Assembly: GCF_013155545.1 (NCBI RefSeq)
Contig: NZ_JABJVV010000009.1
Coordinates: forward strand, 124,001 to 188,000
Origin: Caenimonas soli
GTDB lineage: Bacteria > Pseudomonadota > Gammaproteobacteria > Burkholderiales > Burkholderiaceae_C
Length of the DNA: 64,000 nucleotides
Direction: 5' to 3'
The position numbers were made by a program, and so were the translations under genes. Positions within the stretch are counted from its first letter, which is position 1. Every line of letters begins with the position of its first letter. Positions 5,774 through 12,501 of this stretch are shown here, piece by piece. The notes below the pieces were generated by a model. The model made no database searches and was not told the DNA's origin. It saw only the letters and a program-made list of their open reading frames with translations.

Positions 5774-6421
5774 GTGAAATCGAAGTCCCTCAAGGATCTG
5801 CAGCACATCCAGCAGAAACTGGCCGAACAGCAGAAGCTGGCGGCGGCGCAGGAGGCCGCTCGCCAGGAGGCCGAACGCCGTGCCCACGCCGAGAGAGACC
5901 TCTTCGTGCGGGCGGCCGGCGCGGTGAAACCGATTCGCGATCCCCGGCGCGTGGACCTGGCGCCCGACCAGCCGCCACCGATCGCCGTGCAGCAGCAGCT
6001 GGACGAGCAGCGCGTGCTGCAGGAAGCCATCAGCGACGAGTTCGACGCGGCCACCTTGCTGGACATCGACGATGCACTGAGCTTTCGCCGCCCCGGCATA
6101 GGCACCGACGTCACACGCAAGCTGCGCAAAGGCGGCTGGAGCATCCAGGGCGAGATCGACCTGCACGGCCTGCGCCGCGAAGAAGCGCGCGAAGCGCTGG
6201 CGGGCTTCGTGCGCGATGCGCATCGCCGCGGCTGGCGCTGCGTGCGTGTGGTGCACGGCAAGGGCCTGGGCTCGCCGGGCAAGATGCCCGTGCTCAAGGG
6301 CAAGGTGCAAAGCTGGTTGATCCAGAAGAACGAAGTGCTGGCCTTCGTTCAGGCCCGCGGCGACGAGGGCGGCGCCGGGGCCCTGGTGGTGCTGCTCAAG
6401 CCTTCGCCGGGGATGAACTAA
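5774..6421 (+). CDS. Smr domain-containing protein
   Basis: A 215-aa protein starting at GTG, eight bases after the radC stop. Residues about 1-50 are a charged, Ala/Glu/Gln-rich helix (coiled coil). The Smr domain occupies about 125-205 with the signature IDLHGLRREEAREAL and the VVHGKGLGSPGKMPVL loop. Smr domains cleave or nick nucleic acids: they occur in MutS2 C-termini and in stand-alone YdaL/SmrB-type nucleases that act on ribosome-bound mRNA. It probably shares a transcript with radC. Its last 26 bases overlap the 3' end of the convergent SDR gene. Confidence 0.92.
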   Translation: MKSKSLKDLQHIQQKLAEQQKLAAAQEAARQEAERRAHAERDLFVRAAGAVKPIRDPRRVDLAPDQPPPIAVQQQLDEQRVLQEAISDEFDAATLLDIDDALSFRRPGIGTDVTRKLRKGGWSIQGEIDLHGLRREEAREALAGFVRDAHRRGWRCVRVVHGKGLGSPGKMPVLKGKVQSWLIQKNEVLAFVQARGDEGGAGALVVLLKPSPGMN

Positions 6422-7157
6422 ACGCCAGCCAATTCTCCAGGGAGGTTTTGCCGGTCCTGGCAGCTCCATCGGGTATCAAGGACTTGTCGTCCAGGCGCGT
6501 GCCGAAATAAAGTGCATCGGCATCGGTCACGACCTCACGCGGGTCCTTATTGGCCTTTAGCACGCGCCGAATCAGATCATCGAGTGGGACGGCCTCGGGC
6601 CCGGCCACGTCGCAGGTGCCGTTCAGGGGCTCCTGGCCCACGACTTCGGCGAGGGCCGCGGCAACGTCGGCCGCTGCAATGGGCTGGATCAAGGCGGAAG
6701 ACAGGCGCACCGTCTCGCCCACAGTGCTCCCATGCGCAATGGACATCAGGAACTCGAAGAACTGCGTGGCCCGCACGATGGTGTACGGCACCTTCGCGTT
6801 CTTGATGAGCGACTCCTGCGCGATCTTGGCGCGGAAGTAGCCGCTGGCAGGAACACGCTCGGCACCCACGACCGATAACGCGACATAGTGCTGCACGCCA
6901 GCCTTGGCTGCGGCCGTCAGCAGGTTCTGGGTGGACGCCTGGAAGAAGCGCATCACGGCCTCGTCTTCGAACGACGGCGAGTTCGAGACGTCCACGACCA
7001 CCCGCGCTCCCGCCAGTGCCTGGTCCAGCCCTTCTCCCGTGACGGAGTTGACTCCGGACGAGGGCGAGGCCGACGTTACGGTGTGACCGGCCTGCTGGAG
7101 CAAGGTCGACAGTTTCTTTCCGATGAGGCCGCTGCCTCCGATGATGACTACTTTCAT
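6396..7157 (-). CDS. SDR/NmrA-like NAD(P)-binding protein of the ECF41 module
   Basis: A 253-aa atypical short-chain dehydrogenase. The N-terminal Rossmann motif is GGSGLIGKKL (residues 7-16). The later blocks (VVDVSNSPSFED, HYVALSVVG, YFRAKIAQE, YTIVRATQFFEF) are typical of NmrA-like, redox-sensing or flavin-reductase-like SDR proteins. The ATG overlaps the stop of the carboxymuconolactone-decarboxylase-like gene (ATGA), so the two are translationally coupled and probably driven by the ECF41-type promoter at 7650-7676. Oxidoreductases of this type are the usual partners of ECF41 sigma factors. The substrate is unknown. Confidence 0.88.
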   Translation of the reverse strand: MKVVIIGGSGLIGKKLSTLLQQAGHTVTSASPSSGVNSVTGEGLDQALAGARVVVDVSNSPSFEDEAVMRFFQASTQNLLTAAAKAGVQHYVALSVVGAERVPASGYFRAKIAQESLIKNAKVPYTIVRATQFFEFLMSIAHGSTVGETVRLSSALIQPIAAADVAAALAEVVGQEPLNGTCDVAGPEAVPLDDLIRRVLKANKDPREVVTDADALYFGTRLDDKSLIPDGAARTGKTSLENWLAFSSSPAKA

Positions 7158-7612
7158 GCGATCTCCTTTTCGGCCACGGGCGATTGCATGCCGATGGCCA
7201 TGCGGTTCCAGGCATTGATCTGTGCGATCACCCAGGAAAGTTCGACGATCTCCTGGTCGCTGAACTGGCTCTTCAGTGCGTCGAAATCGGCATCGCGATT
7301 GACGTGGTTGCCGACCAACTCGGTCATGGTCTCGGCCCAGTTGAGGGCCGCGCGCTCGCGCTGGCTGTACAGACGAGTCTCGCGCCAGGTGGACAGGCTA
7401 TTGATGCGCTGCCAGGTCTCGCCATGCCTGCGCAGATCGCGCACATGCATGTCAACGCAGAATGCGCAGCCGTTGAGCTGGGAGACGCGGGTCTGTATGA
7501 GCTCCGTGAGGGTCGGGCCCAGCGACGACTTGGCGATGGCGGCGCCGACGCCGGCCAGCGCCTGGTAGGCCTTGGGGGAGATTTCAGTCCAGGGGAGCCG
7601 GGGTTCGTTCAT
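7154..7612 (-). CDS. Carboxymuconolactone decarboxylase/AhpD-like protein
   Basis: A 152-aa AhpD-fold protein. The redox motif GCAFCVDMH supplies Cys49, Cys52 and His56, the CxxCxxxH arrangement of AhpD-type alkylhydroperoxidase proteins, so peroxidase or thiol chemistry is more likely than decarboxylation. It is the classic COE partner (carboxymuconolactone decarboxylase, oxidoreductase or epimerase) encoded next to ECF41 sigma genes. A match to the ECF41 promoter (TGTCACA-N16-CGTC) lies just upstream, inside the 3' end of sigJ, leaving a leader of about 30 nt. AGGAA at 7617-7621 is close to the ATG and serves as ribosome-binding site. Confidence 0.92.
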   Translation of the reverse strand: MNEPRLPWTEISPKAYQALAGVGAAIAKSSLGPTLTELIQTRVSQLNGCAFCVDMHVRDLRRHGETWQRINSLSTWRETRLYSQRERAALNWAETMTELVGNHVNRDADFDALKSQFSDQEIVELSWVIAQINAWNRMAIGMQSPVAEKEIA

Positions 7613-7645
7613 GATTTCTTCCTTGAAAGTGGTTGGGATACACCA

Positions 7646-8560
7646 TCAAGACGGCTGAGGGGGCTGGTTTGTGACAGCCACCTCCCGGCCCAGGGCCGCG
7701 GCAATGCGCGCAAGCTTGTCGGGATTGCGCTGGGCATGGATGCGCACGATGCGCTCGCCATCGGTTTCGAGCGTCTGCGCCGACTCCAGCCCACCGTTCA
7801 CGAAGCGCAACAGGCCCCACTGGCCATTGAGCACGACGACTTCGTAACGCACTGCATTGGGGTACCGCAGGCCGGTCGCAAGGTAGAGCTGGGCTATGCG
7901 CTGGCCACCCACCAGCGGAACACCGAAGCTGGGCACCTTGCCGCCGCCATCACCTATGAGCTGCGCGTCATCAGCGAGCATCGCCTTGAGCGCGGCGAAC
8001 TCACCCCGTGTGGCGGCGTCGGCGAACCCGCGCAACAGCCGCAGCTGGGTTTCGCGCGGGACGATGTAGCGGGGCCGCTCGTCTTGCAGCTGGGCCTTCG
8101 CACGGTGAACCAGCTGCCTGCAGGCGCTCTCGGTCTTGCCCAGGGCCTCGGCCACTTCGTCATAGTCCGCATCGAACACTTCCCGCAGCAGGAAGGCTGC
8201 GCGCGCCTCGGGGGTGAGCCGCTCCAGCAGCGCCAGAAAGGCAACCGACACATTGTCGACTCGCTCCAGCGCCTGCTCCGGCGTGACCGGCGAGTCGGAA
8301 AGCATGGGTTCCGGCAGCCATGTGCCGATGTAATGTTCACGCTGAACCTTGGCGCTGCGCAGCCGGTCGATCGCCAGGCGTGTGGTGATGGTGACCAGCC
8401 AAGCCTCGGTGCTGTCCAGCTGTTCTTGCTCAGCTTCGTGCCAGCGCAGCCAAGCGTCCTGCACCACTTCTTCCGCCTCGGCTGTGGAGCCCAGCATTCG
8501 ATAGGCAATGCCCTGCAAGCGGGGCCGAAGGCGGGTGAAGGTGCTGGTGGGGTCGTTCAT
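7646..8560 (-). CDS. sigJ: ECF41-family RNA polymerase sigma factor (SigJ type)
   Basis: A 304-aa ECF sigma factor with sigma2 (about 5-70), sigma4 (about 105-160) and a C-terminal SnoaL-like extension. All three ECF41 hallmarks are visible: WLPEP (81-85) in the linker, DGGGK (204-208) and NPDKL (279-283) in the extension. In studied members the extension acts as a built-in anti-sigma or activator, so no separate anti-sigma factor is expected, and none is present. I start at ATG 8560; a TTG three codons upstream is open. A CGTCACA-N16-CGTC sequence immediately upstream suggests self-regulation with an extremely short leader. Confidence 0.95.
   Translation of the reverse strand: MNDPTSTFTRLRPRLQGIAYRMLGSTAEAEEVVQDAWLRWHEAEQEQLDSTEAWLVTITTRLAIDRLRSAKVQREHYIGTWLPEPMLSDSPVTPEQALERVDNVSVAFLALLERLTPEARAAFLLREVFDADYDEVAEALGKTESACRQLVHRAKAQLQDERPRYIVPRETQLRLLRGFADAATRGEFAALKAMLADDAQLIGDGGGKVPSFGVPLVGGQRIAQLYLATGLRYPNAVRYEVVVLNGQWGLLRFVNGGLESAQTLETDGERIVRIHAQRNPDKLARIAAALGREVAVTNQPPQPS
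7650..7676 (-). promoter_or_regulatory. ECF41-type promoter (TGTCACA-N16-CGTC) for the COE-SDR genes
   Basis: On the minus strand TGTCACA (7676-7670) is followed by exactly 16 bases and CGTC (7653-7650). This equals the known ECF41 target consensus. It overlaps the last codons of sigJ and lies 37 bases upstream of the AhpD-like gene's ATG. Confidence 0.8.
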
Positions 8561-8569
8561 ACCTGCCAA

Positions 8570-8596
8570 GACGTTTCACAGGCCGTCTTTGTGACG
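8570..8596 (-). promoter_or_regulatory. ECF41-type promoter variant (CGTCACA-N16-CGTC) upstream of sigJ
   Basis: CGTCACA (8596-8590), a 16-base spacer and CGTC (8573-8570) reproduce the ECF41 pattern with one change in the -35 box. The -10 ends nine bases before the sigJ ATG, so a transcript from here would be nearly leaderless. Confidence 0.6.
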
Positions 8597-8602
8597 GATT
8601 TT

Positions 8603-9007
8603 CTACCCGTGCGCGTTGCGCATCCAGTCAGCAGTCTGGAAAAAGCTGCCTTTCAGCCGAGTCCGCAATTCGTCCGGAACCCCGGTTTCGCCCATCGCCT
8701 GATCCATGCAGGCCAGCCACTGGTCTCGCTCCTTGATGCCAATGGTGAACGGCATATGGCGCATGCGCAGCCTGGGATGGCCAAAACGGTCGGTGTAGTG
8801 CTGCGGCCCCCCGAGCCAGCCGCAGAGGAACCAGAACAGGTGCTGGCGCGCCTTGGCCAGCTCGCTGCCGTGGGCGGCGCGCAAGTCCGCATACTGCGGC
8901 TCCAGGTCCATGAGGTCATAGAAGCGCTCGACCAGCGCCTTCACTTTGTGTTCGCCGCCAATCCACTCGAAAGGGGTGCCGGCCGGGGGCTTTTCCTGAA
9001 TCTGCAT
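8603..9007 (-). CDS. Group II truncated haemoglobin
   Basis: A 134-aa 2-on-2 globin of the TrHbO/YjbI class, a haem protein proposed to bind O2 or NO or to handle redox stress. Proximal His is His84 in RMRHMPFTIG, Tyr30 in ERFYDLMD is the B10 tyrosine, and Trp97 in RDQWLACMDQAM is the G8 tryptophan diagnostic of group II. The N-terminus MQIQEKPPAGTPFEW is the usual one for proteobacterial members. It shares strand with the ECF41 module downstream, and the sigJ promoter begins just before its stop codon, but functional coupling is unproven. Confidence 0.93.
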   Translation of the reverse strand: MQIQEKPPAGTPFEWIGGEHKVKALVERFYDLMDLEPQYADLRAAHGSELAKARQHLFWFLCGWLGGPQHYTDRFGHPRLRMRHMPFTIGIKERDQWLACMDQAMGETGVPDELRTRLKGSFFQTADWMRNAHG

Positions 9008-9028
9008 GGCCCGATTGTCGGGGTTGGC

Positions 9029-11551
9029 CTATTCAGGGGCGCGGCGCAGGGTTTCCACGACGGGACGATTAAGCACTTCGCGCAAGCCCCACCAGCCCGC
9101 CGCCAAGGCCAGCGCCGCGCCGGCCAGGGACCCAAACAGCGGCACCCAAGGCGAGGCGGTCCAGTCGAAATCGAAGGCATAGCGGGCCATGCCCCAGCCC
9201 ACCACGCTGGCGACCACACTGGCCAGGAAGCCGGCCAGCAGGCCGATGCCGATCAGCTCGGCGCGCTGGACCTGGCGCAGCAGCACGCCGCTGGCACCCA
9301 CGGCGCGCATGATCGCGAACTCGCGGGCCCGCTCCTCCCGTGTGGCTGTGACGGCCGCGAACAACACCACCACGCCGGCGGCCAGCGTGAATCCGAACAG
9401 GAATTCCACCGCGCGGATCACCTTGTCCAGCACGCCCTGCACCTGGTTGATGGTGGTGGTCATGTCGACGTTGGTGATGTTGGGGAAGGCCCGCACCAGC
9501 TGGTTGTCAAAGCCGCGGCGCTCGGGCGCGCGGAAGGCGCTCATGTAGGTGACGGCCACGTCATCGAGCTGGCTCACCGGGTAGATCACGAAGAAGTTAG
9601 CCCGCATCGAGCCCCAGTCGACCTTGCGCAGCGAGGTGATCCTGGCGTCGGTCTGCTGGCCGCCGATGTCGAAACGCAGTTCGTCGCCCAGTTTCAAGCC
9701 CAGCGTAGCGGCAATGCCCTCTTCCACGCTCACGGCGCCGCGCTCCTCGGGCTCCCAGCGGCCCGCCACCACCTGGTTGTGCGGTGGCTGCACGGGGGTG
9801 CTGGACAGGTTGAATTCGCGGTCCACCAGCCGCTTGGCGCGGTCCTCGATGAAGTCGTCGGGCGTCACGGTCTTGCCGTTCACGGCGATCAGGCGGCCGC
9901 GGATCATCGGGTACCAGTCGAAGCGTTTCACGCCCGCGTCGCGCAGCGTCTTCTGGAACGCAGCGCCTTGCTCGGGCATCACGTTGATGACGAAGCGGTT
10001 GGGCGCATCCGGCGGCGTGGCCTTGCGCCAGCTCGCCACCAGGTCGGTTCGCAGCAACACCAGCAGCACCAGCGCGAGCAGGCCGACTGCCAGGGCGCTG
10101 ACCTGCACCACGGCGTAGGCCGGTCGCGCCGAGATCTGGCGCGTGGCCAGCACCAGCCATCGGGGCGCGGTGGCCTCGTTCACCGACATGCGCAGCAGCT
10201 TCACCGCCACCCAGCTCAATCCGGCGAACAGCAGCACGGCCACGGCAAAGCCGCCCACGGCGATGCCGCCCAGTTTCAGGTCGCTGCTGGCCGCCAGCAG
10301 CAAGGCGGCGAAGCCGATCACGCCGACGGTCAGCACTGCGGCCGAGGCCGGCTTGAGGCCGCCGACGTCACGGCGGATCACGCGCAACGGCGGAACCTGC
10401 GCGAGTTGCAGCACCGGCGGCAGGCCGAAGGCGAACAGCAAGGTCAGGCCCATGCCGATGCCGAACGCTGCCGGCCAGAGTGTGGCGAGCGGCAGCGCCG
10501 TGTCCACCAGGCCCGCCAGCAGCACGATGAAGACGAAGTGCACGGCGTAGCCGATCAACACGCCCAGCAGGCTGGCGGCCAAGCCGATCATCGCGAACTC
10601 GAAGGCGTAACTCCAGGCGATGGTGCGCTGGCTTTGCCCCAGCACGCGCAGCATGGCGCAGTCGTCCAGGTGCGCCGCCGCGAAGCCGCGCGCGGCCAGG
10701 GCTACCGCCACGGCACTCAGCAGAGCGGCCAGCAAGGCAACGAGATTGAGGAATTTCTCGGCGCGGTCCAGGGTCTGACGCATCTCGGGCCGCCCGCCTT
10801 CCAGCGACTCGACCCGCACGCCGCGCACGGCGGGCTTCTTCACTTCCTCCACCGCCCATTTGACGAAGGCACTGACCTGCCGGTCCGGCCCCGCCACGGC
10901 GAAGCGATAGCTCACCCGGCTGGCCGGCTGGATCAGGCGGCTGGCCGGGAGGTCGGCGTTATTGACCATGACGCGCGGCGCGAAGCTCATGAAGCCTGCG
11001 CCCCGATCCGGCTCGACCACGATGACCCGCGCCACCCGCAACTGCGAGTCTCCCAGCAGCAAGGGATCGCCCATCTTCAAGCCCAGCGACTCGAGCAGCG
11101 CGGCATCGACCCAGGCTTCGCCCCGGGCGGGGATGTCGCGCGTACGTTCGCCCGGTGCTTCGGGCTGTGCGGCGACCTGGAGGTTGCCGCGCACCGGATA
11201 GCCCGGCGGCACGGCCTTGAGCGCGACCAGCCGGCTCGCGCCGCCTTGCGCCTCGGGCGCCCGTGCCATGGTGGGAAAGCCCAGCGTGGTCACGGCCTGC
11301 AGGCCCAGCGATCTGGCCTTGTCGATGAAAGCCTGGGGCGTGGGGTTGTCGCTGGAGACGACGGCGTCGCCGCCAAGCAGCTGGCGTGCGTCGCGCGCGA
11401 GGCCGCCCTTGAGCCGGTCGGCGAAAAATCCCACGGCCGTGAGCGCTGCCACCGCCAGCGTCACGGCCACGATCAGCAGGCGCAGCTCGCCGGCACGCAA
11501 GTCGCGCCAGAGGGTGCGCCATCCCAGCTGCCAGGGAGAATTCAGGGTCAT
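9029..11551 (-). CDS. FtsX-like ABC transporter permease (YbbP-like)
   Basis: An 840-aa inner-membrane protein with two FtsX/MacB-type permease modules. It has an N-terminal transmembrane helix (LLIVAVTLAVAALTAVGFF), a periplasmic MacB-PCD-like domain, a first FtsX block about 250-400, further helices about 420-490, a second periplasmic region and a C-terminal FtsX block about 720-830. The architecture matches YbbP, which normally works with ATPase YbbA next to thioesterase TesA, possibly in lipoprotein or hydrophobic-molecule export. No ATPase gene is adjacent here. I start at ATG 11551 (MTLNSPWQLGWRTLWRDL); an in-frame GTG three codons upstream is possible. Confidence 0.9.
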   Translation of the reverse strand: MTLNSPWQLGWRTLWRDLRAGELRLLIVAVTLAVAALTAVGFFADRLKGGLARDARQLLGGDAVVSSDNPTPQAFIDKARSLGLQAVTTLGFPTMARAPEAQGGASRLVALKAVPPGYPVRGNLQVAAQPEAPGERTRDIPARGEAWVDAALLESLGLKMGDPLLLGDSQLRVARVIVVEPDRGAGFMSFAPRVMVNNADLPASRLIQPASRVSYRFAVAGPDRQVSAFVKWAVEEVKKPAVRGVRVESLEGGRPEMRQTLDRAEKFLNLVALLAALLSAVAVALAARGFAAAHLDDCAMLRVLGQSQRTIAWSYAFEFAMIGLAASLLGVLIGYAVHFVFIVLLAGLVDTALPLATLWPAAFGIGMGLTLLFAFGLPPVLQLAQVPPLRVIRRDVGGLKPASAAVLTVGVIGFAALLLAASSDLKLGGIAVGGFAVAVLLFAGLSWVAVKLLRMSVNEATAPRWLVLATRQISARPAYAVVQVSALAVGLLALVLLVLLRTDLVASWRKATPPDAPNRFVINVMPEQGAAFQKTLRDAGVKRFDWYPMIRGRLIAVNGKTVTPDDFIEDRAKRLVDREFNLSSTPVQPPHNQVVAGRWEPEERGAVSVEEGIAATLGLKLGDELRFDIGGQQTDARITSLRKVDWGSMRANFFVIYPVSQLDDVAVTYMSAFRAPERRGFDNQLVRAFPNITNVDMTTTINQVQGVLDKVIRAVEFLFGFTLAAGVVVLFAAVTATREERAREFAIMRAVGASGVLLRQVQRAELIGIGLLAGFLASVVASVVGWGMARYAFDFDWTASPWVPLFGSLAGAALALAAGWWGLREVLNRPVVETLRRAPE

Positions 11552-11586
11552 GCCCGCCACCTTAGCGCAAAAGTCTCAGCCGGGAA

Positions 11587-12501
11587 TTAGCCGGGCGGTC
11601 GGGGCATCGCAAGGCGCAGCTCCAGGTCGCGCAGCACCGGACGGATCCCCGCGCCGACGCGAATCTGCGGATTGGAGAAACCGTCCTCCTTGCGGGCCTC
11701 GATCTCGCGCTGGCGAATCACCGGCACGGCCGCGGCAAACGCCCGTTCGAAGGAATGCGTCTTGCGCAGCTGCTCGTGGAACAAGGCCCGGCCAAAGAAG
11801 GTGAGTTCGGACAGGCGCCCGCAACCGTACGAGGTGTGGTGGGCATCGGCGGCGGTCATGATCAGCGTCGTGTCGCTGGCCAGCGGGCCCACCCAGCCGC
11901 CGGAGTAGCAGGCCGACACGGCGATAACGCGGTTGCGGATGCCGGCCTGGTCGAGGACGCGCCGGAGTTCGCTCGGGCTCAGCGGTTCCACTTGCAGCGC
12001 CCCGTTGGCGGCGGCCAGCATGAAGTCCTTCGCGCCATGGGAGGTGAGGTACACCACCAGCACGTCGTTCTCGCGGTCCATCCGCTCGGCCAGGGCGTCG
12101 ACGGCTCGCTCCAGGTTGGCGGGCGTTGCCCAAAGATGCGTCCGCGCTGTCAGCGGGTGATTGGCCAAGTGCACCACGCGGCCCCTGGCGTCGAAGCGAT
12201 CGGCAAGCAGCTTGGCCACCATATTGCTCTCGCGCAGGAACACGTCGCCATCGTCGAAAGGCGAGAACACCAGGCCGTACACATCCACCACGCCCGGGCG
12301 TTGGAAGACCAGGGACGCAAGCGTTCTCTGCCACAGCGCCTGCTGGTCCTCGTAGATGCGCTCGCTCATTTGCAGGCGTGGACGCTGCTCTTGCTGCGCC
12401 GGGGCCAGCTCGACCAATCCGAAGAACGCGGCCAGGCCCAGCGCCAGCACGCCCATGCGCAAGCGGCACAGGCGTTTGGCAAAGGATTGCGCTTCGTCCA
12501 T
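11587..12501 (-). CDS. Peptidase C13 (legumain/caspase-like) family protein, membrane-anchored
   Basis: A 304-aa protein of clan CD. A hydrophobic segment at about 16-34 (MGVLALGLAAFFGLVEL) is a signal anchor or signal peptide, placing the domain in the periplasm. The catalytic His is His155 in YLTSHGAKDF and the nucleophile Cys198 in SACYSGGW, each after a hydrophobic strand as in legumain, GPI transamidase Gpi8 and caspases. Bacterial C13 proteins are widespread in Burkholderiales but largely uncharacterised. I start at ATG 12501; a TTG three codons upstream is also open. It stands 30 bases downstream of fdhD on the same strand. Confidence 0.87.
   Translation of the reverse strand: MDEAQSFAKRLCRLRMGVLALGLAAFFGLVELAPAQQEQRPRLQMSERIYEDQQALWQRTLASLVFQRPGVVDVYGLVFSPFDDGDVFLRESNMVAKLLADRFDARGRVVHLANHPLTARTHLWATPANLERAVDALAERMDRENDVLVVYLTSHGAKDFMLAAANGALQVEPLSPSELRRVLDQAGIRNRVIAVSACYSGGWVGPLASDTTLIMTAADAHHTSYGCGRLSELTFFGRALFHEQLRKTHSFERAFAAAVPVIRQREIEARKEDGFSNPQIRVGAGIRPVLRDLELRLAMPRPPG

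Follow-up and report, generated by a model that had tools for sequence, protein, structure and literature searches.

An ECF41-type sigma factor gene of Caenimonas soli bracketed by two predicted promoters of its own, with a probably leaderless message

Introduction

The described systems closest to the locus reported here are the ECF41-COE modules of B. licheniformis (ydfG) and R. sphaeroides (RSP_0606), in which, according to the available parts of Wecke 2012 (PMC3426412), the sigma factor carries a WLPEP linker (characteristic of ECF41) and a C-terminal extension, the partner is a CxxC-containing CMD protein whose gene follows a TGTCACA-n16-CGTC promoter, and the regulon is very small. In that work 5' RACE located the promoter, and lacZ fusions were used to test it, in two organisms. 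The same text mentions three motifs for the extension (DGGGK and NPDKL are not spelled out in it), finds promoter motifs before both genes in 20% of the ECF-then-COE loci, and knows of neither a separate anti-sigma factor nor an inducing condition.

A comparable system is the SMb20029-rpoE9 operon of S. meliloti, for which the portions seen of PMC3616915 and PMC6180224 give an ECF41 motif and a single CMD target; it differs in that the COE gene comes first, upstream of the sigma gene, with which it is probably cotranscribed. Leaderless mRNAs have been reported in Burkholderiales, enriched for transcription functions (B. cenocepacia, PMC4603805; C. metallidurans, PMC7563307), and in the accessible parts of these two papers we found no ECF41 gene named as leaderless.

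In this work, we analysed a 64,000-nt stretch of the Caenimonas soli genome (the window; contig NZ_JABJVV010000009.1, positions 124,001 to 188,000) and compared its ECF41 locus with those of relatives. The finding is largely expected for ECF41; what is probably added is a sigma gene bracketed by its own promoters, with a message that is likely to be leaderless. In the ECF41 modules of Wecke 2012, as far as the available text goes, neither a leaderless sigma message nor a promoter over the sigma stop codon is described, whereas here 9 nt separate the sigma promoter from the ATG and the promoter of the partner gene overlaps the stop codon of the sigma gene. No statement of either arrangement was found in the parts seen of PMC3616915, PMC6180224, PMC8999054, PMC9023288, PMC8103513, PMC4603805, PMC7563307 and PMC9045368, a coverage without the A. 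brasilense ECF41 work, Wu 2019 and Goutam 2017; the tight packing of the two promoters around the sigma gene thus looks like an unreported variant of a known system.

Methods

Relatives of the sigma gene were searched for in 60 genomes of the genus (25 with a match), 299 of the family (79), 300 of the order (29) and 397 of the phylum (53). The family search gave 86 places, of which 70 entered the set, two were already in it from the genus search and 14 were left out, while the phylum search gave 57 (30 with loci, three already in from the order search, 24 left out); from the 121 named loci, the best 80 were taken. After removal of identical copies and cut genes, the 231 loci with a sigma match became 219, among which closely related species remain. 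Counts out of 213 leave out six loci without a recognised sigma start, and gap counts for the sigma promoter cover 141 of 142 loci. A promoter was scored when at least 10 of the 11 motif positions matched (≥10/11). The near-match sites of the genome itself (L001-L028) were excluded from the comparison of relatives. Changes of state were counted on a FastTree tree with long branches flagged, and labels were shuffled 50 times per trait, the ranges quoted below coming from five of these shuffles.

Results and Discussion

The sigma factor and its neighbours

The sigma gene (ECF41/SigJ type, 304 residues) occupies 7646..8560 on the minus strand, from an ATG at 8560..8558 to a TGA at 7648..7646. Its product contains sigma regions 2 and 4 (PF04542, 59.6 bits; PF08281, 55.3 bits), scores above the cut-offs of TIGR02957 (345.1 bits, cut-off 323.25) and of the SigJ subfamily model NF007214 (300.1 bits, cut-off 271), and aligns over residues 5-251 with the SigJ chain of PDB 5xe7 (E 3.7e-41), the closest solved chain, a likeness that concerns structure only. 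No SnoaL Pfam model matched at E 0.001, and the second-best match to the protein in the genome lies at E 3.5e-11. All three motifs named as ECF41 hallmarks by the initial annotation, which had been made from the letters of the window, are present in the translation (WLPEP, DGGGK and NPDKL); the last two we take to be hallmarks of the extension. The two features of the genomic context that mark ECF41 members, a neighbouring COE gene and TGTCACA-n16-CGTC in front of it, were also found.

Within the genus, the sigma matches (25 of the 60 genomes at E 1e-40) reach at most 63% identity outside the window's own genome. Sigma genes of Polaromonas, Variovorax and Cupriavidus, among the best 80 of the 121 named loci, reach 82-86%, and this high identity, compared with that inside the genus, possibly reflects horizontal transfer.

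Downstream of the sigma gene, on the same strand, lie the COE partner, a CMD/AhpD-like gene (7154..7612, 152 residues, CxxC present as CAFC; PF02627 81.5 bits, TIGR00778 59.7 bits), and a second partner, a gene with a domain match to the SDR/NmrA-like (NmrA/Epimerase-type) NAD(P)-binding proteins (6396..7157, 253 residues), the two overlapping by 4 nt. The layout of sigma, CMD and SDR genes is the known ECF41-COE arrangement. A downstream SDR partner was seen at 27 of the 219 loci, a count to be read with the fact that many loci hold little downstream DNA.

Three further features of the neighbourhood were noted. The SDR gene shares its last 26 nt (6396-6421) with the end of a convergent Smr-domain gene (5774-6421, plus strand). 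A 1468-residue open frame (7184-11590, plus strand) runs antisense to the sigma gene, a truncated-globin gene and a long membrane-protein-like frame, and is probably a GC-rich shadow frame. The globin gene (PF01152; 8603-9007, minus strand) stops 6 nt short of the sigma promoter described below, and tblastn (E 1e-4, up to 900 nt upstream on the same strand) found a homologue of it at 1 of the 219 loci, namely that of the window; a functional link to it was dropped on account of this confinement.

A promoter in the 3' end of the sigma gene

An exact TGTCACA-N16-CGTC motif, here called P_COE, lies on the minus strand at 7650..7676 (-35 TGTCACA at 7676..7670, 16-nt spacer at 7669..7654, -10 CGTC at 7653..7650). 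It is the single match in the 64 kb of the window (none in 100 dinucleotide shuffles) and the sole exact match in the 5.64-Mb genome. The motif lies inside the sigma reading frame, the stop codon beginning one base past CGTC, and 37 nt (7649..7613) separate it from the CMD start codon (7612..7610). The initial annotation had proposed precisely this, namely an ECF41 promoter within the last sigma codons, 37 bases before the AhpD-like gene, that drives the partner and makes coding and regulatory constraints overlap. Its statements on the motif and its position hold; the overlap and the assignment as promoter of the partner are supported by sequence, family and comparative evidence, the verb "drives" being borrowed from homologous promoters. 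The interpretation holds and is mostly known biology (Wecke 2012, PMC3426412, in its available parts), and it missed the second copy of the promoter and the SDR gene.

Concerning the transcript start, the one stated mapped distance that we found for an ECF41 motif is that of the SMb20029-rpoE9 operon, where the motif lies 9 nt upstream of the start (PMC3616915 and PMC6180224, portions seen). The available text of Wecke 2012 (PMC3426412) gives leaders of 22 and 23 nt for genes that its Table 5 lists with 31 and 32; if the values of the table are measured from the -10, which is our own reading, the two agree with a distance of about 9 nt. Applied to P_COE, this distance predicts a start at 7641 or 7640 (rather than near 7643, as proposed initially) and a leader of 28-29 nt containing AAGGAAG. 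Base 7641, the ninth after CGTC, is a G, also the commonest base there in relatives (63% of 38 embedded and 72% of 69 other promoters).

In relatives, 42 of 213 loci have a motif whose start falls in the final 70 nt of the sigma frame. Five control windows of equal size, placed further upstream, each gave 0 of 213, and the reversed motif gave 1 of 213; in 77 of the 213 loci the motif starts within 60 nt past the stop. A CMD homologue lies downstream on the same strand in 138 loci, with P_COE scored in 114, the sigma promoter in 113 and both in 103. The spacer of P_COE is 16 nt in all 114, of which 38 are embedded and 76 start no earlier than the end of the stop codon. In 20 of the 38 embedded ones the distance from the start of the motif to the end of the stop codon is 31 nt, as it is in the window. 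On the tree, at least 12 changes separate embedded from outside positions (label shuffles, 33-38), a minimum on one tree in which gain and loss are not distinguished. Taken together, these results support an embedded ECF41-type promoter, predicted from sequence, for the COE partner at the sigma 3' end.

Two other ideas on this overlap were rejected. The promoter does not bring its own TGA: CGTC-N-TGA occurs in 20 of 38 embedded promoters, against 9 of 69 outside the frame, so that the TGA belongs to the gene and not to the promoter consensus, and what is general after CGTC is two T only (98% and 89% of the 69). An argument from codon use (at the site, 27 of 33 Thr codons are ACA; elsewhere, 5%) was circular, because the loci had been chosen by the motif, and was replaced by the control windows given above.

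Position also varies with the gene that follows. In four loci without an intact CMD gene (L174, L103, L096 and L098) the promoter stands directly before a homologue of the SDR gene, the likeness to the window's SDR being judged by eye. In L174 a CMD-like frame hits a stop after 15 codons (again judged by eye), the embedded -35 is lost, and an exact copy of the motif lies 62 nt past the sigma stop, before the SDR homologue. No CMD homologue was found in the other three, where the promoter before the SDR homologue scores 11/11 (L103) or 10/11 (L096 and L098). As read from these sequences, the promoter follows the partner gene.

A second promoter and a predicted leaderless message

A second ECF41-type motif with one mismatch, CGTCACA-N16-CGTC (P_ECF; 8570..8596, minus strand), lies at the same position as in relatives and ends 9 nt before the sigma ATG. 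With a motif-to-start distance of 9 nt, the sigma mRNA should be leaderless, the predicted start being the A of the ATG or one nt earlier (8560..8561), a placement that the spacing in relatives also favours. Based on this distance, we consider a leaderless sigma message rather probable.

The sigma promoter is present, together with a recognised start, in 141 of the 219 distinct loci (115 of them at 11/11), and its spacer is 16 nt in 140 of 142. The gap between CGTC and the sigma start is 8 nt in 52 and 9 nt in 40 of the 141 (92 in all). It is 7-11 nt (leaderless-type) in 100, all with ATG, a uniformity to which the start choice, which favours ATG, contributes, and at least 14 nt (leadered) in 41. 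In 91 loci with the 8-9 nt gap, the 16-nt spacers are 40% identical, with 30% expected from composition, so that the spacing outlasts the sequence. Leaderless-type spacing was seen in 36 of the 53 genera with P_ECF, where codes and names were counted apart and may overlap. The family f56, outside the order, is leaderless-type in 5 of 5 loci, and the family f5 is leadered in 6 of 6; 77 of the 219 loci have no scored P_ECF, including 21 of the 26 under NCBI Burkholderiaceae. On the tree, the two types are separated by at least 15 changes, again a minimum without direction (34-37 in the label shuffles).

Pairing with the anti-Shine-Dalgarno sequence is weak at these starts. The median is -1.6 kcal/mol for the 100 leaderless-type sigma starts (random positions inside genes give a stronger -3.0), -3.3 for 40 leadered starts, -3.75 for 72 without P_ECF and -5.8 at 73 CMD starts of the same loci picked regardless of Shine-Dalgarno (SD) strength; in 68 of these 73 loci the sigma start pairs more weakly than its own CMD start. 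The first choice of CMD starts had used SD strength, which is circular, and the result was unchanged when the choice was redone without it; the distance from CGTC to the CMD start (32-118 nt, with one outlier of 1608) comes from that first choice. Since the -10 sits where an SD would be, the lack of an SD could be a side effect of how the promoter is packed. The window is itself not the cleanest example, because an AGG stands one nt ahead of its sigma ATG and this start pairs at -4.9 kcal/mol (the CMD start at -5.2), stronger than most of a class in which 8% reach -4 or below.

Both features coincide in part of the set. Among the 103 loci with both promoters and a CMD gene, 30 are leaderless-type and embedded, and 23 are leaderless-type with the stop codon 1-8 nt past CGTC, 17 of them exactly as in the window; leaderless spacing and embedding show no association (30/45 vs 7/21, Fisher p 0.18). 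Whether such loci form a recurrent ECF41 class framed by its own promoters, with the start codon as +1 and the stop just past the second -10, we regard as an evenly balanced question.

Proposed mechanism and alternatives

Starting from the observed motif positions, gene families and comparative conservation, we propose an ECF41 module in which the sigma factor recognises both copies of the motif and so gives an autoregulated leaderless mRNA and an enzyme mRNA, a reading to which we assign a probability of roughly 0.78. From P_ECF (8596..8570) an mRNA would begin at the sigma ATG or one nt before it and may extend across the CMD and SDR genes, which would amount to positive autoregulation. P_COE (7676..7650) would give the two enzymes a shorter mRNA that has a leader and an SD site. 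The sigma C-terminal domain would keep the factor inactive until a signal arrives, as proposed in the accessible family literature. Of the steps that we infer (recognition by this sigma factor, the transcript starts, leaderless translation and positive feedback), feedback appears likely, and the presence of two sigma-dependent promoters at one locus slightly more so. If this is right, one holoenzyme makes a sigma message without SD and an enzyme message led by one, and the loop could be switched on by conditions that favour leaderless translation; an autoregulated sigma message that lacks a leader, next to enzymes whose message is SD-led, would then be a concrete layer of control, and the recurrent promoter across the stop codon a clean case of coding and regulatory overlap that can be traced over many genomes.

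The proposal must be weighed against other explanations, one of which keeps P_COE alone. P_ECF would then be a decayed relic and the sigma gene would be read from some other promoter, for instance one in front of the globin gene, and the weak AGG would serve as its ribosome site. The AGG adjoining the ATG and the mismatch in the window's P_ECF agree with this, as does the motif standing before the ECF gene in just 14 of 53 ECF-then-COE loci (Wecke 2012, PMC3426412, available parts); yet the same first-base C is found in 13 of 141 P_ECF and 13 of 114 P_COE sites, the 8-9 nt gap is kept while the spacers diverge, and an upstream globin homologue was found at this one locus of the 219, so that we hold this explanation to be unlikely. 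If instead the sigma ATG were miscalled, translation would start downstream and the P_ECF transcript would have a leader. The next in-frame ATG, GTG or TTG is codon 22 in 57 of the 92 loci with the 8-9 nt gap, and conservation over codons 2-12 is 0.52, 0.56 and 0.62 at first, second and third positions; third positions are not less conserved, so codon periodicity gives no support for translation of the N-terminus. A start at codon 22 would, however, truncate sigma region 2, whose Pfam match begins at about residue 8, and 79 of the 92 loci have D or N as their second residue, making a miscalled start quite improbable.

A last alternative concerns P_COE, whose motif might be a coincidence of protein coding (a conserved VT...S tail) and no promoter. 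V, T and S are indeed invariant in 22 of 22 loci of the class starting at -31, but this invariance is circular because the loci were chosen by the motif. The same motif, moreover, occurs just past the stop, the stop shifts relative to the promoter between sister loci (L040/L057 and L256/L260), and the embedded motif is read in different frames (33, 7 and 2 of the 42), all of which leaves very little room for coincidence.

Candidate sites elsewhere in the genome

Beyond the two motifs of the proposed module, the genome scan suggested by the initial annotation as a way to list the regulon returned P_COE as its single exact match, and we claim no member of the regulon beyond this locus. Allowing one mismatch at most gives 28 sites (13 forward, 15 reverse), against 39 (22 and 17) for the reversed pattern, so that near-matches are at background level. 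By a crude rule 26 of the 28 lie inside predicted ORFs, a weak rule because antisense frames cover both sites of the sigma locus too. At three outside sites a predicted ORF starts 50-120 nt downstream (L006, 116 nt; L018, 58 nt; L027, 83 nt), each site lying also within another ORF of the same strand, and the mismatches of L018 and L027 fall on -35 bases that are invariant in the 141 P_ECF and 114 P_COE sites; L005 has an ATG inside its -10. A regulon beyond the sigma locus was therefore rejected for want of a convincing site among near-matches no commoner than the reversed pattern. Two further sites, L011 and L022 (on C4 and C48 of the genome), each have a TGTCACA-N16-CGTG near-match and resemble one another because they share about 1.2 kb at 80% identity, possibly a repeated element.
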